NCBI GenBank assembly: GCA_002917775.1
Contig: KZ627155.1
Span: 406,675 to 470,674 of the forward strand
Direction: 5' to 3'
DNA: 64,000 nucleotides
Origin: Glaciozyma antarctica PI12
Lineage: Eukaryota; Basidiomycota; Microbotryomycetes; Kriegeriales; Camptobasidiaceae
Made by a program: the position numbers and the translations under genes. Shown one piece after another: positions 3,122-58,979 of the stretch (its first letter is position 1; each line of letters begins with the position of its first letter). The notes under the pieces were generated by a model. The model was not told the origin of the DNA and did not search any database. It saw only the letters and a list, made by a program, of their open reading frames with translations.

Positions 3122-3417
3122 CCTGTCCAGTCCGCCAGCGCAGAGGGAGGATGGGAGGAGAAGAATGCGGGAGGGAACAATTTGGCCTTGAGCCACGTGC
3201 GAGTCTCCTGGGTCCGCGGAGTGTTGGCGTCCTTCTTTCGAATATAACTCCTTCTCTCTGCAGAACGCACGACCGCGACAGGAGCACAATAACGAGAATA
3301 CACAGCTTTGATGCAGCTTGCAGGGATAAGACAACACGAGCCAGGCAGCACGAGGAACAGGTCAATCCATCCTCTCCATTCCTCGAGTGAAGGGAAACTC
3401 ACGACAGCCTCTCCCAC

Positions 3418-4898
3418 TCAACGCAAGAGCACTTCCATCCCACCCCACTCCAGCACCCTAAACTTCTCCACATCCCTCGCCCCCTCCATCACCCCAACCA
3501 CCCTCTCCCAATCCACCCCCCCAACTCGCTCCCTCGCCTCCTCCCATTCCCTGATCTCCTCCGTCCCAACCCCCCTAAACAGCATAAACACCCTCGTCAC
3601 CACCTCCGGCGCTGGCACCACAACGAGCTTCGCACTCTCCTCATACGCCTCCTGCTCGACGAACCGCATCGCTGCCTCCTCTGCCCGCTCCTGGATCCGC
3701 AGGAACGAGGGGAGCCAGTAGGTGATGAAATCGTTGCGCGCCGAGGTGTGGAGAGTGAGTTTGGTGAGAGCGAGGTCGAGGTAGGGGATGAAGGAGGTGA
3801 AGGGGGGGAGGATGGCGTTCGTCGCGTCGAGGTGTGGGCGGGAGGGGTTGAACGTTGGAGGAAGGAGGGGTGAGGAGGGGAGGAGAGGAGGAAAGGAGGA
3901 GAGGGAGGAAGAGCGAGGGCGTGGGCTTCCCAGAAGAGGTAGGAGAGGGAAGTGCCGGTGAGAGTTCGACGAGGGTTCCGTCGCTCGCTGCTGAGACGGT
4001 CCAGTTCCTTGTCGACCCTCCGGATTTCGTGCGAGTGATGGGGGCGAGAGGGTAGAGGGCGGAGAAGGTCCATTCGGGGACGAGGGAGAGGGCGACGTTG
4101 ATGGAGGGGAGGGGAGAGGGAGGGAAGAGGTAGATGACCGGCTTTCGACCCACCACTCCCCGCCAGATCTCAATCACCATGGGCTCTTTGACAGCGTCCT
4201 GCCACTCTAGGAGGGACCAGTCTGGGAAGAACTCCAGCAGAGACTCGTCCTCTCGGAGCCGCATGTTGTCGTAGGAAAGAGCGCAGTGCTCCAGCCCACA
4301 GCCGCGTTGCAAAACGTAAGCGCCGAACGCCTTCTCAAGCTTTGTCGTGAGCTTCATCCTGATCGTAAAAAACCTCGCAGAGCCGGAGCTGGGGTCGTCG
4401 AATTCCACCTCCACCATCAGCTTTCGAGGTTCGACGATCCCGCGGTTCACGTCGGCGACGGAGGGAGTAGCGGCGCGCGATGGGATGGGAGCAGCGACGG
4501 AGGAGGAGGGCGCAGGATCCTTCGCTGGTCGTTTCGTAGAGTCGGGAGAGATGGAGCGCGAGCAGCGCCTTGCTGCCTTCCTCCCTCCCTCCTTCGCTCC
4601 AACGCCCACCCCCTCCTCTACCGTAAGCTCCTCCCGTTTTCTCTTCACCCCCCTCTTCTCCACCACCATAAACTCAACGAGGTCCCCCTGTAGCGGGCGG
4701 GTCCCCCAACGCGTCCTCGCGTCTACCACGCGTCCTCCGTCACCTCGAACCAGCGTTCCCCGAAGCGAGCGCTGAGGGAGATGTTGATGAGGTCGGGGAA
4801 GAGGGAGTGGGATTTTGCGAGGGCGAGAGCGAGGGTGGGAGGACGGGCGGCGATGAAGGAGTGGGTGGAGTGGGAGAGGAGGATGGAGAGTGGGGGGT
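3418..4898 (-). pseudogene. KPVIYLF-family paralog A, frame-broken copy
   Basis: This minus-strand copy has the same domain order as the intact copy at 5141-6706. The N-terminal domain (HSFIAARPPTLAL, SARFGERWFEVTEDAW) is followed by a basic linker, one SUMO-like domain (FTIRMKLTTKLEKAFGAYV), then KPVIYLFPPSPLPS, SYLFWEAHAL, DFITYWLPSF, VVTRVFMLFRGV and FRVLEWGGMEV. A CTAAC plus ACAG acceptor precedes the coding start, but the ATG found in paralog C is missing. A stop follows the N-terminal domain near 4728. The frame changes at about 3955 (CTCTCACC where the other copies read CTCTCCACC) and again in the pyrimidine-rich linker between YLFWEA and FNPSRPH. It is either a decaying duplicate or a correct gene with sequence errors. 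Confidence 0.6.
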
Positions 4899-5140
4899 GG
4901 CCCTGTGAGGAGGTTAGCGGCGACAGGGCTGTGAGGTGGGACGAGCTGACATTGAGCTGAGCGCTGCTTGCTGTGGCGGTCCGGTCGCGTTGAGCGTTTG
5001 GGCGAGAGAGGGAAGAGGGCAAGGGACTCCGGGCCAGAGAATCGGTCTCCGGCCTGTCTGCTTCCTCTTTCTCTTTCAATTCACGACTCCCGCCACGACT
5101 GTGCGGCTGAGCATGGCGGCCAGATTTAATTTCCAGCACT

Positions 5141-6706
5141 TCACCAATAATACAACGCCTCCATCCCACCCCACTCGAGGACCCTAAACTTACTCTCATC
5201 CCCCGCCTCATCGCTCACTCCCACCACCTTCGCCCAATCCACACTCTCAACCCTCTCCCTCGCCTCCTCCCAATCCGGTAACTCGCTCTCGTCCACTCCA
5301 CGAAACAGCATGAAAACCCTGGTCACGACGTCCGGTGCGGGATCGACGTCCAACCGCGCCGACGCGCCGTATAGCTCCTGCTCGACGAACCGAAGCGCGA
5401 TTTGTTCTCCTCGTCCGTGGATCTGGAGGAGAGCTGGAAGCCAGTAGGCGAGGAAATCGGTGCGAGCGAGGAGGGGGAGAGAGAGGCGCGCGAGGACGAA
5501 TTCGAGGTAGGGGATGAGGTCGGGGAAGGGGAGTAAGATGGCAGTGGTGGGGTCTATGAGGGGTAGGGAGGGGTTGAAAGAGGGATGAAGGGCGACGGAG
5601 GGGTCGGCGGAGAGGAGGGAGGGAGGGGCGGGGAGGGCGTCGGCTTCCCAGGATAGGTAGGAGAGGGGGTTGGGGGAGGAGGATTCGGTGAGGAGGCCGT
5701 CGGTGGAGAGGGAGATAGTCCAGTGCGCCGAGGAACCGGCCTTGGAACGGGTGAAGGGGACGAGAGGGGAGATGGAGGAGAAGCACCATTGGGGGACGAG
5801 GGAGAGGGCGACGGCGATGGAGGGGAGGGGGGTTGGGGAGGCGAAGCTGCGAAAGCGAGCGTCAGTAAGACCGGAAGTTTAGAAATCGTTCTCGGCGCAC
5901 TAGAGATGAGGGTTGCCACCCTTTTGTACCGTAACAACCTTGAACGATTGGTCCTCGGACAAGTCGACGACGAGGTCGGGAAACCGCTTGAGGAGGACGA
6001 TGAACGAGTCCTTCCCAACAAGCTTCATCCCTCGCCAATAGCAGTGAAAGGTGTCCATGGGCGCCTCGCTCTCGTTGCTGTACGCCTCAAAGACGCGACT
6101 AAACGACATGTTCGCCCTCGCCTTGATCGCAACGTCCCCCGGCGGTCCAGTCACATGGATAGACACCGGCGTGTAGGGATCTAGCGCGCCGAACTCAGAA
6201 GCAAAAGCTTCAGGCGTCATCGTAGGCTGTCCCCCATTCCGAGCAGCCAGCAATCCCCCCTGCGAAGCCGCCGCCGCCGCCGCCGCCTTCTTCTTGAGCG
6301 CCTTCTTCTTCCCCGACGCGCTTCCTCCCACCGGCACCTTCGTCTTCTCCCCCACCACATCCGAAAGTACCTCCTTCCCCTTCCCCTCGACGCTCTGCAC
6401 CTCCTCCCGCTCCCGCTTCTCCCCCTCCACCACTCTCGATCCCGACCCCGACGCAACCGGCGTCCTCGCGCGCACCTGCACCCCCACCGACTCCTTCCAC
6501 AGCCTCGGCGAGCTCCACGCATCCTCCAGAATCTCGGCTTGGACGCCAGCGATGTTCATCTCGAGGAGGAGGGACAGGTCGGCGGGGAGTTCGGGGAAGA
6601 GAAGGGTTGCTTTGATGAGGGCGAGCTTGAGAGTGGCGGGGCGGGAGGTGGCGATACTACGCTGGTTGTAGGTGTACACGATGCATTTCGAGGTGTCGGT
6701 AGCCAT
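5141..6706 (-). CDS. KPVIYLF-family protein, intact copy D (N-terminal domain, SUMO-like domain, KPVIYLF-type domain)
   Basis: With one 54-nt intron (5900-5847, GTGCGC to TTTCGCAG) this reads as one open frame of about 503 residues, the only undisturbed member with the C-terminal domain. Residues about 10-80 form the N-terminal family domain (VYTYNQRSIATSRP, FPELPADLSLLLEMNIAGV). A KKKALKKKAAAAAAA linker follows, then a SUMO-like domain at about 175-260 (RVFEAYSNESEAPMD, YWRGMKLVGKDSF). The C-terminal half carries NPHLYFASPTPLPS, SYLSWEADAL, DFLAYWLPAL, VVTRVFMLFRGV and FRVLEWGGMEAL. A CTAAC branch and CAACAG acceptor abut the ATG, so a 5' UTR intron ends exactly at the start codon. I cannot name a function. 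From memory the C-terminal motifs recall uncharacterised bacterial proteins with KPVIYLYPE, YLFWEG and EWGG. Confidence 0.75.
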
Positions 6707-7162
6707 CTGTTGGCGCGAGGGAGTTAGCTGCGGAGGGGGAGGAGCAGCGCAGGAAGACTTGCGTTGGGCAGGCTGCTGGGAGCGCTGGCGGGGATGGCGC
6801 GACTCCTCTCGAGGTGGAGGCACCTGGGGTGATTCTCGGGGTGAGCTCAGGAGGTGCAGGCGAGCTTGAAAGCAGCGACAAGATGCAAAAGAAGAAATCT
6901 CGCCCGAAGTTCGATCTTGACCAAATTGAGGACCGTGCGACCGGCGGCGCCGTCGAGAGCGAGCTGGGGGGGGGGGGGCGGACGAAAGAGATACGATCTC
7001 GCTGGTGTGGAAGCCGACGAGCAGGCGGAGAGAAGACTGGCGAGAACGAAGTGCTTTCTCGTCTTCGAAATACCGAAATCGAATACAGATTCGCGCTCTC
7101 GCTGCCGAATCGTCGCACGCGAGGAGTCTCCAACTGACTTGCTTTACAGCGTCCAACACAAC

Positions 7163-8590
7163 TCATCGCGAGAGCACCTCCATCCCACCCCACTCCAGCA
7201 CTCTAAACTTCGTCGCATCCCTCGCTCCCTCCTTGACCCCAACGACACTCTCCCATTCCACCTCCCCAACCCTTTCCCTCGCCTCCTCCCACTCCCCTCC
7301 TTCCTCCTTCCCAACCCCTCTAAACAGCATGAACACCCTCGTCACGACCTCCGGTTCCGGCACCACAACAAGTTTCGCACTCTCGTCATACGCCTCCTGC
7401 TCGACGAACCGCATCGCTACCTCCTCTCCCCGCTCATGGATCCGGACGAACGAGGGGAGCCAGCAGGTGATGAAATCGTTGCGCGCCGAGGTGTGGAGAG
7501 TGAGCTTCGCGAGAGCGAGGTCGAGGTAGGGGATGAAGGAGGTGAAGGGGGGGAGGATGGCGTTCGTCGCGTTGAGGTGTGGGCGGGAGGGGTTGAATGT
7601 TGGAGGAGGAAGGGGGGAGACGTCGGAGGGGAGTAGGGAGGGGAAGGAGGAAGAGCGAGGGCGTGGGCTTCCCAGAAGAGGTAGGAGAGGGAAGTGCCGG
7701 TGGAGAGTTCGACGAGGGTTCCGTCGCTCGCTGCTGAGACGGTCCAGTTCGTTGACGATCCACCAGTCTTGGTGCGAGTGATGGGAACGAGTGAGTAGAG
7801 GGCGGAGAAGGTCCATTCGGGGACGAGGGAGAGGGCGACGTTGACGGAGGGGAGGGGAGAGGGTGGGAAGAGGTAGATGACCGGCTTGCCCCCGCACTGA
7901 TAGCGCATGACCTGGATCGAGACCTCCTCTTCCTCCATTTCGTCGAGCGAGTACAGCGTCGCTTCACGATCGACCTTGCACCCGTCGAACGAAAGGTAGT
8001 ATTCCCTCTGCCCTCAAGAACACCCTTCGCATCGAGCCATGCGTCCAGCACCTTCGTGAGACGCGTCCTGCTCCTGATCGTGAACCGCCTGAATTCCCGC
8101 ACGCCCCACATTGTCTTGTCCTGTAGCACGATGATGAAGCGCGACATGTCTCGACTGGGAAGAGTTGTGAAGGGTGGCGAGGGGAGAGGGAGAGGAATGT
8201 CGGAGATGAGAGCCAACATGGTTGCGGAGAGAGAGGTGGTCGACGGGGGAAGCGTGGCGCGAGCGTCGCTGACTCCTGCGACGTCCCTCCATTGATCCGC
8301 CCGCGACGTCGTCGGCGACCTCGGATGGAAGGACTTGGGAACGACATCGATCACGACACTGCTCCGCAATCCAAACTCCTCCAGCTTCCAATCCTTTCAC
8401 AGCTGCGCGCCCTCCCAAACGAGCTCGACGCCAGACTCCTTGATGTGAAGATGCTTGCAAAGCGCTTTACCTCCACCTCCAGTCTCTCTCTCAAAGTCGA
8501 TGATGGAGCGAGAGCGGAGTGGTTACGAAGCAACAGCGAACTACAAAGACTCCTCCCTCGCGCGACTGATCTGAAACCTGTACGAATCAA
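7163..8590 (-). pseudogene. KPVIYLF-family paralog B, frame-broken copy with two SUMO-like domains
   Basis: Minus strand, tandem with the copies at 3418 and 5141. The upstream part holds a degraded SUMO-like domain (ALCKHLHIKESGVELVWEGAQL) with an in-frame TGA. A second SUMO-like domain (FTIRSRTRLTKVLDAWLDAKG, then YYLSFDGCKVDREATLYSLDE) is split by a frame change near 8010. The C-terminal domain follows (GGKPVIYLFPPSPLPSVNV, SYLFWEAHAL, DFITCWLPSF, VVTRVFMLFRGV, FRVLEWGGMEV), with another frame change in the linker before FNPSRPH, the same offset as in paralog A. No clear N-terminal start was found. It is probably a pseudogene, with sequence error as the alternative. Confidence 0.6.
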
Positions 8591-18135: not shown

Positions 18136-18408
18136 GATAGACTAGCTGGGGAGAAGAGTGAAGAGAGAGAGAGAGAGCTGATGCCGACTCGAAGCTCGAA
18201 GTCGTGTCCTTGCCTCGCACGGGCCACAACTTGGGTTGACTTGGGTGGGGCGAGCGGGGTTGCTCCTTCTCTCCTCCAGACTGCTCAAACGGACGAGGAC
18301 TTGAACAAGCTCAGCTGGAACGAGACGGCAAGTCACTCTCGCCAGATCGAGACTGGCTGAGGAGCCCGCGCCGAAGCTCACGAGCTAACTCCTCACTTCC
18401 TCTCCCAG

Positions 18409-20388
18409 ATGGCCAGCAGCAGCAGCAGCTCAAGGACCCTCGTCCTAACCTACAACAACCGGAGCATCGTCACTTCCCGCCCCTCCTCCCTCTCTTTCAC
18501 CCTCCTCAAAGCCGCCTCCCTCTTCCCCGACCTCCCTCCCAACTCCTCCCTCGTCCTCCTCGCTAGCATCGCAGGAGTTCACGCTGAAGTCGCAGCGGAC
18601 GTTTGGCACTCTCCGCGATTTTGGAAGGAGCTCAAGGTGCTGAGGGTTTGTGTGAGGCAGCAGGTTGCGTCGGGGTCGAGGGAGGCGCGGGCTGGGATCG
18701 CCTCGAAGCCGATGCTGCCGCCGGCTACGGAGAGTGGGGAGCGACGGGAGGAAGGGCCGGAGGAGGAGAGGGGCGAGCTTAAGAAGGCTTCGCAGGCCGT
18801 AGGAGGTGAGGGCAAGACGGCGAGGGAAGGAGCGGTCGAGCCTCCTTCGACGAGCGGAGCCCTCCCTTCCTCAGCGCCGGAGGAACCAATCCCCTCTCTC
18901 AACGACTCGCCCTCTCCCCACGACACCAATCCGGCCACACCCAGTCCCGCCGTACCCGAACCTCAACCGCCAACTTCCCCCTGTTCCACCGAACCCACCA
19001 TCGTCCTCCCTCCTCCAATCAACCGCGCCTCCGTCCTCACAGTCCGACTCGCCGGCCCCACCTACCCCGACTTCAACGTTGACATCCGTATGTTGATGAA
19101 GACACCTTTCGACAAAGTCTGCGAGGTGTTCGCTACGCAGGTCGGGGTGATGGACCATACGTTTCGTCTGGTCTGGGAGGGGAGAGAGCTCGTCAGGGAG
19201 CAGTGCTTTTTCGATTTATGGGAGAAGAGGGACGCGCTGGGGCTGGCAGCGTCGAGTTGGGATTTCGAGAAGATGTTCTCTGTCGAGGTTCAGCGCTTGT
19301 CGGTTGTCGCTCCCCGAGGATCAAGAGGACAACGCGTTAGTGGCAGTGGACGAGTCTCGCGCGCTGATGAGGTCGTGAGCCATGCGGAGGAATCGGTGCG
19401 AAAGAGGAGAAAGTGGAGGAAGGAGGAGAGGAGGCGAACGAGCGGGAGGCGAAGGACGAGGGGGATTCGAAGCCTGCGAAGGGGGCTGGGACCGCGCGGA
19501 AGGGAAAGGAAAGGGACGACGCAGATGGACGTGCCCCCGGGCACGAATCGACCAGCGGCGTCGCCCCTTTGTCGACGGGAGACCCGGCCATTTCGCTCGA
19601 CCGCTTCCGACCCTCCGTCGACGATGCTCCGGTCGCCCACAAGATGTTCACCCAGCTCGTCACTCCCAAGCCGCCTCAACCGACTCCACGTACAACCATC
19701 AAGTCGCCCTCCACTCCTCCCGCCGGACGCACCGCCACCTCTCCCAACCCTCCCACCACCCTCCCCCTCCGCCCTACCCACCTCCCCCGCGTCCTTCGTC
19801 GAGTTCCAGGTCTCAGGCAAATCCCCTTACAGCGACGGGATCTTCGAGCTCCCCCGCAACATGCTCTTCCTCGAACTTCGCACAGCCTTCGCCTCTGGCT
19901 GCGCCGTCGACCCCCACCAATTCCTCCTCGGCCACAAAGGCCACGAACTCCTCGACTCGGACTCGTTCGGCGCTCCCGTGGCTCGGTACCCGTATCTCGA
20001 GATTGACGAGGATGCGATAGTACTCGTTGATGTGCGGCATGCGGGCGAGGAGAGCGGGGTCGAACCGGCATTACAACTCGCTCTATCTCTCAATGGACGA
20101 CATCGCATTAACCCCATTACGCCGCTGAGGTTACGTGTCACGAGCGGGCCGGAGGGGAAACCGTTCGCGGTGCAGGCGATGTTGCACATGAGGTTCTTTC
20201 ACGTTGTGGAGGTGTGGAGTCAGAGGACGGGGAAGGAGAGCGAGGGGTATATGCTGGTGTGGGAGGGGAGGGAGTTGGGGATGCAGGATTCGTTCCTCAA
20301 GATGTGGATGAGGGAACCGACGAGGGACTTTAGGATCAACGACTTGGTCCTGATGAAGGTCGTCGCGAGGGAAGCCTCGTCGACGTGA
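18409..20388 (+). CDS. family member E: N-terminal family domain plus three SUMO-like domains, no KPVIYLF domain
   Basis: Single open frame of 659 residues. Residues about 10-85 match the N-terminal domain of copy D (LTYNNRSIVTSRPSSLS, LFPDLPPNSSL, IAGVHAEV, WHSPRFWKE). Three SUMO/Rad60-SLD-like domains follow at about 207-293 (FRLVWEGRELVREQCF), 463-545 (FLLGHKGHELLDSDSF) and 573-655 (YMLVWEGRELGMQDSF). The KPVIYLF-type domain is absent. In the linker (about 19,330-19,790) another frame gives a more natural acidic sequence (EEKVEEGGEEANERE), so two compensating one-base errors may have scrambled about 140 residues. A CTAAC...CTCCCAG acceptor abuts the ATG, as in copy D. Function unknown; a scaffold that binds SUMO-pathway partners is only a guess. 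Confidence 0.75.
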   Translation: MASSSSSSRTLVLTYNNRSIVTSRPSSLSFTLLKAASLFPDLPPNSSLVLLASIAGVHAEVAADVWHSPRFWKELKVLRVCVRQQVASGSREARAGIASKPMLPPATESGERREEGPEEERGELKKASQAVGGEGKTAREGAVEPPSTSGALPSSAPEEPIPSLNDSPSPHDTNPATPSPAVPEPQPPTSPCSTEPTIVLPPPINRASVLTVRLAGPTYPDFNVDIRMLMKTPFDKVCEVFATQVGVMDHTFRLVWEGRELVREQCFFDLWEKRDALGLAASSWDFEKMFSVEVQRLSVVAPRGSRGQRVSGSGRVSRADEVVSHAEESVRKRRKWRKEERRRTSGRRRTRGIRSLRRGLGPRGRERKGTTQMDVPPGTNRPAASPLCRRETRPFRSTASDPPSTMLRSPTRCSPSSSLPSRLNRLHVQPSSRPPLLPPDAPPPLPTLPPPSPSALPTSPASFVEFQVSGKSPYSDGIFELPRNMLFLELRTAFASGCAVDPHQFLLGHKGHELLDSDSFGAPVARYPYLEIDEDAIVLVDVRHAGEESGVEPALQLALSLNGRHRINPITPLRLRVTSGPEGKPFAVQAMLHMRFFHVVEVWSQRTGKESEGYMLVWEGRELGMQDSFLKMWMREPTRDFRINDLVLMKVVAREASST

Positions 20389-20935: not shown

Positions 20936-22678
20936 ATGGCCTCCATCCTCCTGTCCCACTCCTCCCAATCCTTCATCGCCGCACGCCCTCTCACCCTCGC
21001 TCTCGCTCTCACCAAAGCACAAGCCCTCTTTCCCGACCTCGTCAATATCGCTTTCAGCGCACGATTCGGGGAACGCTGGTTCGAGGTGACGGAGTAGGAG
21101 AGGGATACGCTTAATCTGAAGGAGGANNNNNNNNNNNNNNNNNNNNNNNNNNNNNNNNNNNNNNNNNNNNNNNNNNNNNNNNNNNNNNNNNNNNNNNNNN
21201 NNNNNNNNNNNNNNNNNNNNNNNNNNNNNNNNNNNNNNNNNNNNNNNNNNNNNNNNNNNNNNNNNNNNNNNNNNNNNNNNNNNNNNNNNGCTTTCAGCGC
21301 ACGATTCGGGGAACGCTGGTTCGAGGTGACGGAGGACGCGTGGGAGACGCGTGCGCTGAAGGAGGATCTGGTCGAGTTTACGGTGGTGGAGAAGGTTGCG
21401 AGGGGGGTGAAGAGGGAGCGGGAGGAGTCTGCGATAGCGGGGGAGCAGAGCGGGGCACTGCGGGTCGAGAGGGAGCCAAGGTCGACGCGACGGAGGGGAG
21501 GAAGGCGGCACGCTGCTCGCGCTCCAGCTCGCCAGGATCCCGCAACCGCTCAGCAGTGGCGACTGCTCCCTCGTCCTCCACTACCCCTGCAGTCCAGTCC
21601 TCGTCCAGCGCCCTCGCGCCTGCCGACAGCGAAAGCAGGGACCTGTCCTCGCTGGTGGCGGAAGTCGTGATCGAAGGGCCCGTCGACCCGTCTATGACCA
21701 TCAAGATCAGGCTCAGCACGCCGTTCAAAAAAGTCTTTCAAGCGTACTGCGATAGAACTGGACGTCAGCGCTCGGACTACCGCTTCAGGTCCGAGGATTT
21801 GCGCGGGTGTGAGTCGGGGGGCCCGCTACCACCGTCTTTGCTGGGGCTGTTCCCTCTTCGGACGTTTGATGAATGGAAGGAGGCGGTCAAGGACCCATTT
21901 GTGGTGGAAGCGACGCTGGAGCAAGCCGGGGGCAAGCCGGTCATCTACCTCTTCCCACCCTCTCCCCTCCCCTCCGTCAACGTCGCCCTCACCCTTGTCC
22001 CCGAATGGACCTTCTCCGCCCTCTACCCACTCGCCTCCATCACTCGCACCAAGACTGGTGGATCGTCAACGAACTGGACCGTCTCAGCAGCGAGCGACGG
22101 AACCCTCGTCGAACTCTCCACCGGCACTTCCCTCTCCTACCTCTTCTGGGAAGCCCACGCCCTCGCTCTTCCTCGCTTCTCCTAAACTGCTCAACCCCTC
22201 CTCTCCCACACTCCTACGCTACTAACCCCTCCTTCCTCCAACGTTCAACCCCTCCCGCCCACACTTCGACGCGACGAACGCCATCCTCCCCCCCTTCACC
22301 TCCTTCATCCCCTACCTCGACCTCGCTCTCACCAAACTCACTCTCCACACCTCGGCGCGCAACGATTTCATCACCTACTGGCTCCCCTCGTTTTTCCGGA
22401 TACAGGAGAGGGGAGAGGAGGTTGCGATGCGGTTCGTCGAGCAGGAGGCGTATGACGAGAGTGCGAAACTTGTTGTGGTGCCGGAACCGGAGGTCGTGAC
22501 GAGGGTATTTATGTTGTTTCGAGGTGTTGGGAAGGAGGAGATCGGGGAATGGGAGGAGGTGAGGGAGCGAGTTGCGGAGGTCGATTGGGAGAGCGTCGTT
22601 AGGGTCAAGGAGGGGGCGAGGGACGCGACGAGATTTAGGGTGCTGGAGTGGGGTGGGATGGAGGTCCTTTCGCGATGA
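20936..22678 (+). pseudogene. KPVIYLF-family paralog C, contains an assembly gap and frame changes
   Basis: Starts MASILLSHSSQSFIAARP with the same N-terminal domain as paralog A (SARFGERWFEVTEDAWE, DLVEFTVVEK). The N-run at 21127-21289 lies inside it. After the gap the linker and a SUMO-like domain (MTIKIRLSTPFKKVFQAYCD) appear, in a frame different from the N-terminal part. The C-terminal domain follows (GGKPVIYLFPPSPLPSVNV, SYLFWEAHALAL), then a stop at about 22185 in the pyrimidine-rich linker. The remainder (SRPHFDATNAILPP, DFITYWLPSF, VVTRVFMLFRGV, FRVLEWGGMEV) continues in another frame. The offset in this linker differs from the one in paralogs A and B. Real decay and poor assembly cannot be separated from the sequence alone. 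Confidence 0.6.
21127..21289. other. assembly gap (163 N) with the same sequence on both sides
   Basis: The 44 bases ending before the gap-side tail (about 21050-21093) recur immediately after the gap (21290-21333). The bases just before the gap look like a low-quality version of the bases after it. The two contig ends therefore overlap, and the gap may be false. Confidence 0.85.
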
Positions 22679-29182: not shown

Positions 29183-29937
29183 ATGGAGTTCCCCGCTCCT
29201 CCCCCCTCTGCCCCTCCTCCAACACCCAGCTCCAGCCCCGCTTCCCTCCCAAAAACAGGTGCGTCCTCCCCACGCCTCCTATGCCGCTCACCGCCTTCTC
29301 ACAGCTCGCGCTCGCGCCGGCCTCGTTGTACGCTCCTCCCTGTTGGCATCTGCTCGATTCTGACTCCCCGCAATTCCCTGTTTCTTCCACGCGACACCAA
29401 ATGGAGGATACCAGCTCGCAGTCAGTGACTACCGAGGCCTCAGGTGCGAAGGGCGATCTGGCGCTGGCGAGGGAGAAGCTGATGCCTCGACAGTCTTTCT
29501 TGCTGCAGTTCTAGAGTATTTGACTGCTGAGATTTTGGAGCTTGCGCGAGGGGGAATGCGGTGCGTTGATGGCGGCTGTGGGAGGGAGGAACGAGCTGAC
29601 CTTCGCTTCTCGGATTCGCTTCGCAGGAAGGAGGAAAAGAGGAAGATTGAAGGGCATCACGTCGAACTGGCTATTCGTGTGAGTCTCTCGGTGGTGGGTA
29701 CCCGTCAAGGATGCTGATTCCGCACCGCAGAGCGATCCGGATTTGTTCAAGCTCGTCGGACACCTCTTGCCCTCTGCGGATTCGCCTGATGTGAGTCGCA
29801 TTCCGTTACAGTCGTTGAGTTGGCAGCTGATTTGAATGGAGCAGGTTGAGATGGAGATGGACCTGGAGAAGGTGGCAAAGGCGCGGAGGGATCACGAGGA
29901 GCTCATCGGTGTCCTCGGTCGACTGGGGTTGTCCTGA
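29183..29937 (+). CDS. highly divergent H2A-like histone-fold protein, gene 1
   Basis: Six exons (29183-29258, 29305-29327, 29415-29560, 29627-29678, 29731-29790, 29845-29937) join in frame to about 149 residues. The histone fold is clear in RARAGL, then VFLAAVLEYLTAEILELA (alpha-2 helix of H2A) and HHVELAIRSDPDLFKL. The N-terminal tail is Pro/Ser-rich (MEFPAPPPSAPPPTPSSS) with almost no Lys. The usual PVGR-H region is replaced by VLAVSDYRGLRCEG, GNAA is replaced by RGGMR, and the C-terminus is acidic then helical (VEMEMDLEKVAKARRDHEEL). Intron positions after R-G-G-M-R and after LAIR match those of the next gene, so the two are paralogs. Neither canonical H2A nor H2A.Z fits. Expression is unproven. 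Confidence 0.7.
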
Positions 29938-30480
29938 GAGCGGAGGTAGTCGCCAAGAAGAGGATGGGAATGCTGAGAACTTGTTGATCGGGAGAGGAGG
30001 GAAAAAAGTTCGCGGGACGAGGGTGGACTACGGCGACGGCGGTTCCTTCTTCGAGAGGTTCTACTTCGTCTCGCTTGGAGAAGCGACGGCTTCTTTCCCC
30101 ACACTGCTTCGTGCTCGCTCTTCATAAAGACGCATCATTCTCGCGCTTCGTCTACCGACTCAAACGACGCCCTCAAAGTGTCGGGGCGCGCCAGGTCCGG
30201 ACTCCGGAGTTTCTCTCTTTGAGTTCTCCAAATCTTGACCTGCACGTCGAGACGCTGCTGCGTCTTCTGAGCTGCGTTAAGGTCTTCCACTAGAGATTCG
30301 CACCAGCGAGCGGAAGAAGCCTGGCGCAAGGCCGACTCCTGGAGGGATGTGCTCGGAGCGAGTTCCTCTCGAAACGAAAGGCGCGACTCTACTCTCCTCT
30401 CTCGTTCCTGCCATCTCCTCGTTTGAAGCTTCTCCTTCTCAATCCCTGCTCAGCCACTACACGTCGCACCCAGCCATCAA
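29938..30480 (+). other. spacer between the two H2A-like genes
   Basis: No conserved coding sequence seen on either strand. It should hold the 3' end of gene 1 and the promoter of gene 2. Confidence 0.45.
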
Positions 30481-31185
30481 ATGCCCTCTGTTCACTGTAC
30501 GCTCGCGCTCCCTCGCTACGTGACTCGCTCTCACTACCGCTTCGCCCTCGCCCTCCCCCAGCCCAAGCCGGCATCATCGTACGCCCTTTCCTCTTTACTC
30601 CTCTTCTTCCCTAACCCCCGTGCAGTTCTCCGTCGCGCGCGTGAAGAAGAACCTCCGCAGCGGACGCTACTCGCAGCGCATCTCGTCCGGAACCCCAAGC
30701 AAGTCCTCGCCTCTTCTTCTCCAGCCCAAAGCAGCTCTAACGCGTATCTCAGTCTACTTCGCCGCCATCCTTGAGTACCTCGTCGCGGAGGTCCTCGAGC
30801 TCGCTGGCAACGCCGCTCGGTCAGCCTTCCCCGTTGCAAACGTCGAGGGGGAAGGGAGCTGATGAGCGCTTTCATTCGATCGCAGGGACCACAAGAAAAA
30901 GCGTATCATCCCAAGGCACCGCGTCCTCGCTATCCGCGTGCGTCGTGCGAAGCTAAAGAGCAGTGGCGCGAGACGCACAAGGGGCTGACGGGCTCGATGC
31001 GCAGAACGACGAGGAGCTCAACCAGCTCCTGGGGCATGTCACCTTCGCCCAAGGCGGTGTTCTCCCTCACGTACGTCCGTCCTCCGCGGTGCGAGAAGGC
31101 GTCGCTGATGGAGTGTCTCGCGGCGTGGTGCAGGCAGATCCACGCCGAACTTCTCCCCAAGAGGACGCACAAGAAGGAAGGTTAG
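30481..31185 (+). CDS. divergent, short-tailed H2A variant, gene 2
   Basis: Seven small exons (30481-30496, 30562-30578, 30626-30698, 30753-30819, 30886-30937, 31005-31070, 31138-31185) give about 112 residues. The N-terminal tail is only MPSVHSQ before AGII. The fold reads [19 protein letters not shown], then [61 protein letters not shown] and [14 protein letters not shown]. The C-terminal half is close to ordinary H2A, but the tail is missing and the L1/alpha-1 part is divergent. The acidic-patch pair (EE of NDEEL) is kept. Intron 3 uses a GC donor (GCAAGT). The next gene, a SNF2 ATPase, starts only 163 bases downstream on the same strand. Confidence 0.78.
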
Positions 31186-31348: not shown

Positions 31349-34300
31349 ATGGGGCTCGTCGTCCTCGTGCACGGGGAAGAGAGCTGCGTAACGTCGTCCT
31401 CATCCTTTGCCGCCCTCCTTGCCGCCGCCCAAACTGCCTTCCACCTCCCTTCCTCCTCCTCCGCCGACCTCGAAGTCTACGCCCAGTACTTCGGCCGTCG
31501 CACCAGGATCCTTCAAGCAGCGTGGGAAAATCCGACGTTTGCTTTGGAGAACGGCGCGGAGCTAGAGGTCGTCGTGAGGGAGCCGGGAGGACTAAGGAAT
31601 GCGGAGCTCGAAGTGCGGGGTGCGGTGGACGCTGGCCTTGCGGCGGTGCCGGAGCTGTTGGAAAAGATGGAGATTATGCAGGAGGCTCAGGCTCAAGCGA
31701 TGCACAGGTCAGGAGAGGTTGCAGCTGGTGGGGTGGACCCGTTGAAGGATGATGGTGCTGCTCTTGCGCCTGCCTCAGACAAGATGGTGAGCTCGCAGCT
31801 TTCGCCCCAACCTCACCGAAAGCTAAGAGATACCTCCCAGCTCGTGGACGCCGACCCTCCTATCGACCCCGCTCGCCTCCTCTCCTCCCCTCCTCCGACG
31901 CCCCTCCGCGACCCGCCTTCCCCCTTCCGTTCCCCCTCTCCCCCTCCCCTCAACTCCGTCCTCTCCTCTCAAGGCGGCAACGCCTTACCCTCTCCACCTC
32001 TCGATGCCCGCCCGCCCGCCACTCCTAGAAGCTCTCCCGCCCGCCAGCCCTCAGCATCCGGCTCCGCTCTCGCCTCTCCCACACACTTTCTCCCCCTCGA
32101 TCGCCTCATCAAGGCCGGCACCATCTTCCTTCCCTATCACGCATTCTCCATCGACGCCATGCCGCAAGACGCAGAAGACGACTGGATCCGCCTCACTCGC
32201 GCGCTTCTCGTCCCGACCGGCGAGGCTCCACTACAAGAACCTGTTCTCCAGCCGCAAGCTCCTCCGCAGACGCCATCTCAGAAGCGAAAGGGCAAGGGCA
32301 AAGCGACCCCGGTCTCGACCCCCGTGAAGCGGAAAGCGAAGGTCTCCTCCCTCCTCGACGATATCCTCGCGCTCCAGTCCGCTCTCCTCCTCCGCGCAAC
32401 CGTCAAAGCTTGCGAAACGGATGGCGTCGTGCTGAGAATTTACCTCGTCCCGTTCGATCTTCCGGAGCTGCGCGAGGAGAAGGTGTGGAAGACGAGGAGG
32501 GGGAAGCCGGCGAGTTCGACGGTGCTGGGAGTGCGTGGGGGCGATTCGGGTGAAGGCTGGAGAAGTGGGGGAGTGGGAGCGATGGAGAGGGAGAGGTGCG
32601 AAGGCTGATGGATGAGGAGGTGCGCCGTTCGTTCTCACATTCCGCGCAAATTGCTGATCTCGACGTGGTAGAACAAAGGCTCGCTACTCGAGATTTTCCG
32701 AAACCTCGAATCGCCTGAGCACGAGAACGATTCTTACGATGGGCTCGAAGATGCGAGCGACGAGATCAAGCAGCGCTTGAGGGAGGCCTTGACCGAGGAC
32801 CCGGCCGGAATGAAGTCGACGTTGTATCCCCATCAAAGGGTGAGTTCTTCGCTATCTGCCCGAGGAACTGGATTGACGAGCTCTTGCAGGCTTCTATCGC
32901 TCGGATGCTCGCGATGGAACTCGCTCCTCAGCTTTCGGTTGATCCCTCCTATCACGCCTGCGATTCAGTCGACAGCAAGGTCTCATTCTACATCAGTGTC
33001 ACTGGGGACGTCGTCTTCGATCCTCCTAAGGTTCGAGAGCCGAGAGGTGGAATCCTGTGAGCAGGATTTTCGGCTCTTTGCAAGCGAGCTGACGACGTCG
33101 TCGCAGTGCCGACGCCATGGGCAGCGGAAAGACTGCGATCTCCCTCGCTCTTATCCTCTCCACGCTCGACAATCTTCCGAACCTCGACACGACCTCGAAC
33201 ACGCTCGACGGAGCCCCAGGATCGACTCCCCAGATCCTCACCAAGATCCTCAACTCCGTCGCAGCAACCAACCCTCCCCACCCTCCCCATCCTCCCCAGT
33301 CCTCTCTCACCTTCCCCTTCGAGGCGTACCGAGTCGAGCAGACCGCCCTCAAGCACCGCATTCCGCCGCAGTTCGCGGGCTACGACCCGACGGCCTGGGA
33401 GATCGAGCGTTATCAGGAGGAGCTCGACCGACAAGAGCACGAGGACGCCAACGCTCCCCCTCCCCGCCTTCCCTCCCTCCGCGACATCTGCCTTCACTTC
33501 CTCACCGCTCGTCCGCACCTCATCCCCCGAGCCGTCAATCCTACCACCGTCGACCCTACCACCGTCGATCCTACCACCGTCGATCCTACTACCGTCAATC
33601 CTACCACCGTCGACCCTACCACCGTCGACCCTACCACCGTCGAACCACTCGCCTGGACAGGTCGCCTGCAGCCGTACTACTTCCTCCGTCCATCGGCGGC
33701 GCAGCTCGAGAGTCGGTCGGGACGTCGCGGGGCCTTTTCATCGAAGAAGATGTACATCGGACGGGCGACGCTTATTGTCGTCCCGTCCGTGCTGTTAGCT
33801 CAGTGGACGGTCGAGATTGACAAGCACGTCGAGGAAGGCCGCCTTCGAGTTCTCGTCCTCAAGACCTCGAAGGACGCGTTCCCGACGGCGTTTGAGCTCG
33901 CGAGATTCGACATCGTCCTCATGAGCACTGCACGATTCTCCGACGCCGCGGACGACCCAAACTCGCCTGTGCCGAAAGTTCACTGGCTTCGCCTCCTCGT
34001 CGACGAGGGACACACGCTTTCTGGAGAGAACCGGCTGCGCAAGTTCGCTGAGAAGGTACGCGGCTTGTCCTCACTTCGCCCTCCTGCCTTCGACGCTGAC
34101 AATTTCTCTGCAGCTCTCTTGCGGCGCGCGATGGGCGATCACCGGAACCCCGTCTACGAACCTGCGAGGAGCTCCTGGGGAGGACGAAGGAGCTCTCTTC
34201 GCAAGCGATTCCGAGGTCGGTGGCGACGAGCAGGACTTTCAGCGTCTTGGCGCCATTATCGGGCGCTTTCTTCGCCATTCTGCCTTCAAGAAGTCGGACG

Positions 34301-58235: not shown

Positions 58236-58979
58236 ATGGCACCCAAAGCAGCTGAGGTGAGTACATCGCACCCGCTTCCAGCGAGTCAAGCTAAACGTTC
58301 TTCACACCCACCGCAGAAGAAGCCCGCCTCGACCACCGCCGGCAAGGCTCCCGCCTCCAAGGCTCCCGCTGGCAAGGCTCCCGCCAAGAAGGCCGTCAAG
58401 AAGACGCCTGCCGCCGACGGAGAGAAGAAGAAGAAGAGGAAGACCCGCAAGGAGACTTAGTGAGTCGCGTCGTCGCGGTGTTTGCAGACGACGAGGAAGC
58501 TGACCACGACACGCGCAGCTCCTCGTACATCTACAAGGTCCTCAAGCAGGTCCACCCCGACACTGGTATCTCCAACAAGTGCGTTGACCTCACTTGAGTC
58601 GTCGTCGTCGCGTCCCTCCCTCTGCTGATCACACTGGTTTTTTTCTCTCGCGCAGGGCCATGCTCATCCTCAACTCGTTCGTCAACGATATCTTCGAGCG
58701 CATCGCGTCCGAGGCCTCCAAGCTCGCGTCCTACAACAAGAAGTCGACCATCTCCTCCCGTGAGATCCAGACCTCGGTCCGCCTCATCCTCCCCGGAGAG
58801 CTCTCCAAGCACGCTATCTCGTACGCCCTCCCCCTAAGCTTGATGGGATCATAGCTAACCCGGTCTCCGATACACCGTGAGGGAACGAAGGCTGTGTACG
58901 CCGCGTCTTCGATATCGCCACCTGTTCGACGCGCTGACCTTCTCTCCTTCGCAGCACCAAGTTCAGCGCCGGCAAGTAA
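58236..58979 (+). CDS. HTB1: histone H2B
   Basis: Core histone. Exons give MAPKAAE, a Lys/Ala/Pro tail ([27 protein letters not shown]), [70 protein letters not shown] and TKFSAGK. The sequence is canonical and about 140 residues long. Introns fall at 58257-58316, 58461-58518, 58579-58655, about 58821-58880 and about 58899-58954. The fourth intron has a normal GTACGC donor and GCTAAC branch, but the expected acceptor before TGAGGGAACG reads ACACCG rather than CAG. This is either a rare acceptor or a base error. The gene is not next to a canonical H2A in this window. Confidence 0.95.

Follow-up and report, generated by a model that had tools for sequence, protein, structure and literature searches.

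The window considered here, namely the whole 64,000-nucleotide stretch of Glaciozyma antarctica PI12 DNA that was analyzed, contains two divergent H2A-derived genes, present as strongly altered neighboring copies (Table 1). An earlier note on this DNA had placed a tandem pair of H2A-like genes at positions 29183-31185. The outer coordinates of that pair proved to be exact, and H2A chains were the best PDB matches of both predicted products.

Table 1. Predicted genes, exons and selected introns of the H2A-like pair (positions are those of the window).
Feature	Position	Strand	Description
Gene 1	29183-29937	+	ATG at 29183, TGA ending at 29937; seven exons, 135 aa
Gene 1 exon 1	29183-29258	+	Pro/Ser-rich start, MEFPAPPPSAPPPTPSSSPASLPKT; donor GTGCGT
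Gene 1 exon 2	29305-29327	+	(A)RARAGLV, corresponding to the H2A (K/R)AGL motif; acceptor TCACAG
Gene 1 intron 2, as modeled	29328-29406	+	Acceptor AG at 29405-29406
Gene 1 exon 3, as modeled	29407-29443	+	DTSSQSVTTEAS, replaced loop 1; 5' end provisional
Gene 1 exon 4	29494-29560	+	Histone helix 2, VFLAAVLEYLTAEILELARGGMR
Gene 1 exon 5	29627-29678	+	Loop 2 / helix 3
Gene 1 exon 6	29731-29790	+	SDPDLFKLVGHLLPSADSPD, where the docking region would be
Gene 1 exon 7	29845-29937	+	Charged, acidic C-terminus and stop
Gene 2	30481-31185	+	ATG at 30481, TAG ending at 31185; seven exons, 112 aa
Gene 2 exon 1	30481-30496	+	Start, MPSVH
Gene 2 exon 2	30562-30578	+	SQAGII
Gene 2 exon 3	30626-30698	+	Helix 1 and loop 1
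Gene 2 intron 3	30699-30752	+	GC-AG type, GCAAGT...TCAG
Gene 2 exon 4	30753-30819	+	Helix 2
Gene 2 exon 5	30886-30937	+	Loop 2 / helix 3
Gene 2 exon 6	31005-31070	+	Acidic patch NDEEL and docking domain
Gene 2 exon 7	31138-31185	+	Short C-terminus without SQ motif, stop

Comparison of the two gene models revealed that all six introns correspond in order and in phase (1, 0, 1, 2, 0, 0). Introns 3-6 fall at the same alignment columns in both genes and intron 2 lies directly after column 33 in each, with intron 1 being offset by two codons within a poorly alignable tail. The claim that the genes share introns was thus borne out, although their number is six rather than the two originally reported. 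Eleven of the 12 introns are of the GT-AG type and the remaining one (gene 2 intron 3) is GC-AG, with a CTNAY motif being present in all 12. Moreover, the donor that follows gene 1 exon 2, GTACGC, is the same hexamer as the donor of gene 2 intron 2. For exons 1-7, lengths in the two genes differ by 60, 6, 36, 0, 0, 6, and 45, respectively, all multiples of three, with the exon boundaries having been picked with the reading frame in mind and with the value for exon 3 being 36 as modeled and 3 if counted from the homologous acceptor place. Intron lengths differ by values that are not multiples of three in four of six cases (19, 32, 4, and 13), the other two differences being 0 and 15.

At the place corresponding to the intron 2 acceptor of gene 2 (29372-29373), gene 1 presents AA and not AG, the junction reading gcaa/TTC (29373/29374) in gene 1 as opposed to gtgcag/TTC in gene 2. 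A CTGAC motif lies slightly upstream of this missing acceptor. The acceptor used in the model keeps the reading frame of gene 1 but removes the helix-1 region. Because ten of the acceptor/donor combinations tried for gene 1 remain open in frame and an ATG at 29401, inside the modeled intron 2, provides a possible start that would dispense with exons 1 and 2, the N-terminus of gene 1 is to be considered as provisional. The missing acceptor may be a sign that gene 1 is dead; a single-base assembly error at this site is possible.

Both genes resemble canonical-type H2A

When the predicted products served as phmmer queries against the PDB, the best matches of gene 2 were H2A chains, with 5z23_C at the top (1.2e-54, in two stretches of a chimeric-looking chain), followed by 9lox_C (1.5e-44, in one stretch). 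The same H2A chain, 9lox_C, was the best match of gene 1 (3.2e-14, residues 36-122). In Pfam, gene 2 matched Histone_H2A_C (1.6e-19) and Histone (2.3e-10), in both cases above the cut-off. Gene 1 matched Histone (1.9e-4, residues 36-86) at 22.1 bits, under the cut-off of 26.4, and gave no Pfam match to Histone_H2A_C.

Identity was considered for a 51-residue block, free of gaps, that extends from helix 2 to LLG(H/N). Over this block, gene 2 shares 38-41 residues with the four canonical-type chains compared, 35 with H2A.Z, 36 with macroH2A and 21 with H2A.B, the corresponding values for gene 1 being 27-30, 23, 24, and 19. With respect to 9lox_C, 6uph_C, and 9lrv_C, the values are 38-41 for gene 2 and 28-30 for gene 1. 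Because the canonical chains score highest over this block, both genes look to be derived from the canonical type. Taken at the level of sequence, the descent of both genes from H2A is evident far beyond chance.

In PMC11139335, intron positions are described as informative for the history of H2A variants and sequence trees as weak. The same weakness was seen in the present tree of nine proteins (one being H2A.B), in which no fork was resolved. The earlier claim of paralogy was supported insofar as both genes derive from an H2A gene that contained introns, but the tree did not show them to be closest kin. The H2B gene found in the window is also multi-intron, and a high intron number may thus be usual for core histone genes in this genome, in which case the introns common to genes 1 and 2 may be nothing more than those of their H2A ancestor. 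The canonical H2A of this organism may carry the same introns. No long direct repeat between genes 1 and 2 was found in a repeat scan, and a single repeat family, D2 (25 nt, 76%), joins both gene bodies.

When the 64-kb window was searched by tblastn with two queries, a canonical H2A and an H2A.Z, no additional H2A copy was detected, the other matches having E values of 0.012 or weaker. Scans of viral contigs returned 26 pattern matches for gene 2, 15 for gene 1 and 229 for an H2A alignment, and a scan of prokaryote genome contigs with gene 2 returned 138; none was confirmed, and these collections say little about fungi. In the open literature, covered through titles and the starts of abstracts, no comparable H2A variant was found for fungi. 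In a paper found for H2A variants together with Rhodotorula (PMC9476466), the passages considered treat H2A.Z only.

Gene 2 is predicted to encode a tail-less H2A with a complete core

Gene 2 had been described earlier as nearly tail-less, and its N-terminal tail indeed comprises only MPSVHSQ before AGI, that is, seven residues and zero lysines. No lysine-rich exon was detected upstream of the gene, in that the three unspliced frames of 29938-30500 contain no 15-residue stretch with at least three lysines. At the other end of the protein, the SQ(E/D) motif, the C-terminal motif of the H2A.X type, is absent from gene 2 (KRTHKKEG), as it is from gene 1 (GRLGLS).

Of the 89 columns that are invariant in three canonical references, 65 are kept in gene 2 and 24 are changed. 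Gene 2 keeps all six acidic-patch residues (E56, E61, E64, D90, E91, and E92). Ten DNA-contact positions were checked, namely 29, 32, 35, 36, 42, 71, 74, 75, 77, and 81, and eight of these are kept, the two changes being position 32, where K replaces R, and position 36, which is S. Compared to canonical H2A (9lox_C, 6uph_C, and 9lrv_C), gene 2 is alike over the whole core, the acidic patch and the docking domain, yet lacks the lysine-bearing N-terminal tail. GC3 is 0.805 in gene 2, close to the 0.868 seen for codons 1-129 of the H2B gene found elsewhere in the window, and 0.610 in gene 1.

With a Pfam Histone match above the cut-off, H2A chains as best PDB matches and the Histone_H2A_C match covering the C-terminal docking domain, gene 2 reads as a divergent but complete H2A core, comprising histone fold, acidic patch and docking domain. 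Its product is thus probably nucleosomal, representing a tail-less variant. Given the 24 changed columns, gene 2 may be loosening too. The possibility that gene 2 is the canonical H2A of the organism was also considered and, in light of these same changes, judged unlikely.

Human H2A.Z and gene 2 have AAILEYL-AEVLELA and PHIH in common, and over the first 18 residues of the block, gene 2 matches H2A.Z at 15 positions, as compared to 12-13 for the canonical chains. However, although its helix 2 is nearer to that of H2A.Z, gene 2 presents canonical-type motifs in loop 1 and the docking region, with NDEELN and LLGHVTxAQGG found in place of the H2A.Z sequences. Among the best 60 of the 208 PDB matches of gene 2, none was H2A.Z.

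Gene 1 retains part of the H2A core

Helix 2 of gene 1 (VFLAAVLEYLTAEILELA) is near-canonical, with 15 or 16 of its 18 residues being found in the four canonical-type chains, and helix 3 is kept in part. By contrast to canonical H2A, gene 1 presents no recognizable helix 1, loop-1 arginine or docking domain. The helix-1 columns are gapped as modeled and, if read from 29374, are changed and not recognizable. Four of the six acidic-patch residues are kept (E56, E61, E64, and D90), with E91 being replaced by P and E92, conservatively, by D, while only positions 71 and 75 are unchanged among the ten that were checked for DNA contact. Three traits that the earlier note ascribed to gene 1 were recovered, namely, a Pro-rich tail without the usual lysines (exons 1 and 2 encode a Pro-rich start of 33 residues with one lysine), a replaced loop-1 region (in exon 3 as modeled) and an acidic C-terminus (in exon 7). 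To judge from the residues kept and lost, the product of gene 1 is probably not nucleosomal.

In PMC8015243, mammalian short H2As are reported to differ in having a docking domain that is shortened and an acidic patch that is reduced in size. Gene 1 resembles these proteins in its strong divergence, loss of docking sequence and fewer DNA contacts. In a comparison that covered H2A.B and left out H2A.L, H2A.P, and H2A.Q, identity to H2A.B was 19/51, with gene 1 differing in that it adds an acidic C-terminus and presents no recognizable helix 1. The mammalian short H2As are the nearest analog of gene 1. Among fungi, ascomycete H4E is a divergent core-histone variant for which its authors have so far detected no function (PMC10878826). 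H4E differs from the present case in being an H4 and not an H2A, and in that its introns are described there as unlike those of canonical H4 genes, whereas here the intron pattern is common to both genes.

Past constraint and coding signal in gene 1

The earlier note had proposed dN/dS as a check. For the gene pair itself, this failed, with synonymous sites being saturated (NG86 returned a dN of 0.52 and no dS; LWL85 and YN00 gave no estimate). Third positions match at just 14 of 51 codons and, as such, the split between the two genes looks old. What could be addressed was the 18-residue helix-2 block of gene 1, selected as the best conserved, in which 15 of the 18 residues are the same as in 9lox/6uph, with GC3 being 7/18 as compared to 16/18 in gene 2. 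When neutral drift to this GC3 was simulated from a start with codons like those of gene 2 and H2B, an ancestor of the 9lox/6uph type gave the observed identity 3 and 7 times in 3000 runs, and a composite ancestor (17/18) gave it 0 and 2 times in 3000. With gene 2 plus a neighboring gene as start, the observed value was reached in 9, 12, and 14 of 2000 runs. These tests presuppose that the initial codon usage of gene 1 resembled that of gene 2 and H2B and address past, rather than present, constraint. Because the protein was kept while its codons drifted, the results point to past purifying selection on helix 2 of gene 1.

Genes 1 and 2 have 25 residues in common over the 51-codon block. When gene 2 was neutrally evolved to the same DNA distance over these codons, the mean numbers of shared residues were 11.4-12.2, and the count of 25 was reached in none of four simulation sets of 2000. 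What this shows is constraint on the pair, rather than on gene 1 by itself.

Coding scores were likewise considered. In gene 1, the in-frame score was the top of six frames both for exons 4-5 (6.2 bits) and for exons 6-7 (14.1), and when the bases of the latter were shuffled, none of 5000 shuffles scored as high. The reverse-complement frame was also positive (3.3 for exons 4-5 and 8.4 for exons 6-7), as it was in gene 2 (38.8 in frame vs 24.8 in the reverse complement). Exons 1-2 of gene 1 scored 0.7 bits and exon 3 scored 1.8, with another frame being higher in each. When a 135-codon frame was simulated, the share of 1000 runs still free of stops was 54% with 0.1 random draws per site, 29% with 0.2, 12% with 0.4, and 5% with 0.8. 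The open frame alone is thus compatible with recent decay. A long period of selection followed by the recent onset of decay fits all of the evidence on gene 1; a gene 1 protein with a new role fits the same evidence as well.

Origin and possible roles of the two genes

H2A variants known in detail are mostly those of animals and plants. For the present pair, we lean, if only slightly, toward a reading in which both genes come from a duplicated H2A gene, with gene 2 being nucleosomal and gene 1 corresponding either to a non-nucleosomal protein or to a gene in early decay. Here, an intron-rich H2A gene would have been duplicated at the DNA level to yield both genes. The gene 2 protein would form a dimer with ordinary H2B and enter nucleosomes as a replacement H2A, one that could receive neither the usual H2A tail acetylation nor damage phosphorylation. 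Gene 1, the helix 2 of which would have long been under selection, would no longer have DNA wrapped in a normal nucleosome and would now either encode a non-nucleosomal H2A-derived protein or be in early decay after loss of the splice acceptor. Three features count against gene 1 being functional, namely, its lost acceptor, exons 1-3 in which coding signal is missing, and the absence of parts required in a nucleosomal H2A. If kept, a tail-less H2A with an intact core would offer a direct fungal test of what the H2A tail and the damage-signaling SQ motif contribute, while gene 1 would reveal how much an H2A can lose and still count as a histone.

Alternatively, both genes could be working special-purpose H2A variants, for instance stage-specific ones, with gene 1 being a fast-evolving analog of the mammalian short H2As. 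The roles in meiosis, spores or dormancy that the earlier note suggested would be of this kind. In agreement with this possibility, all seven exons are open in frame, helix 2 of gene 1 was constrained in the past, exons 4-7 of this gene carry coding signal, and the branch leading to gene 1 is about as long as that of H2A.B (1.7 vs 1.44, in a tree with no fork resolved). Still, given the missing intron 2 acceptor and the lack of clear coding signal in exons 1-3 of gene 1, together with the failure to find an ortholog in the viral and prokaryote collections, a result with little bearing on fungi, we regard this explanation as doubtful.

It is improbable that both genes are decaying tandem copies of canonical H2A, open merely because their decay is recent. 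While the missing acceptor and lower GC3 of gene 1, as well as the 24 of 89 invariant columns changed in gene 2, could be so explained, both frames are open, the core motifs of gene 2 are intact and its codon bias is like that of a histone gene (GC3 0.805), and the split looks old, as reflected in the 14/51 matching third positions. We similarly give scant credence to gene 1 as a working helix-1-less H2A derivative that would retain helix 2 and most of the acidic patch but not wrap DNA, acting beside a tail-less nucleosomal H2A, be it as a soluble H2B partner or as a decoy for acidic-patch binders, two roles which, offered as examples, are to be viewed as just as speculative.

Surroundings of the gene pair

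The gene pair is preceded by a Vma22/CCDC115-like gene (Pfam, 2.7e-13) and followed by a SNF2-type helicase gene (Pfam, 2e-16). tRNA and Rfam scans of the 64-kb window were empty, and a promoter/terminator scan, relying on a bacterial pattern that is uninformative for this DNA, revealed nothing above shuffles. Positions 21127 to 52718 contain 230 N in total, including one run near 21.1 kb, indicative of assembly gaps.

The H2B gene lies at 58236-58979 on the plus strand (tblastn, 2.6e-28) and presents a lysine-rich tail and several introns, its first four exons having been modeled and its end read by eye. With one canonical H2A query, no H2A neighbor of this gene was found. Elsewhere in the window, look-alike frames were noted at approximately 3400-8400 (minus strand), 18361-20388 (plus strand), 21115-22185 (plus strand) and, perhaps, at the start of 31349-32536 (plus strand). 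By eye, these would seem to form one family, perhaps ubiquitin-like; at a threshold of 0.01, Pfam returned no match for two pieces of these frames or for the frame at 31349. Finally, a short tandem peptide repeat of the VDPTT type was observed at 33537-33641 on the plus strand, within the SNF2-type helicase frame.
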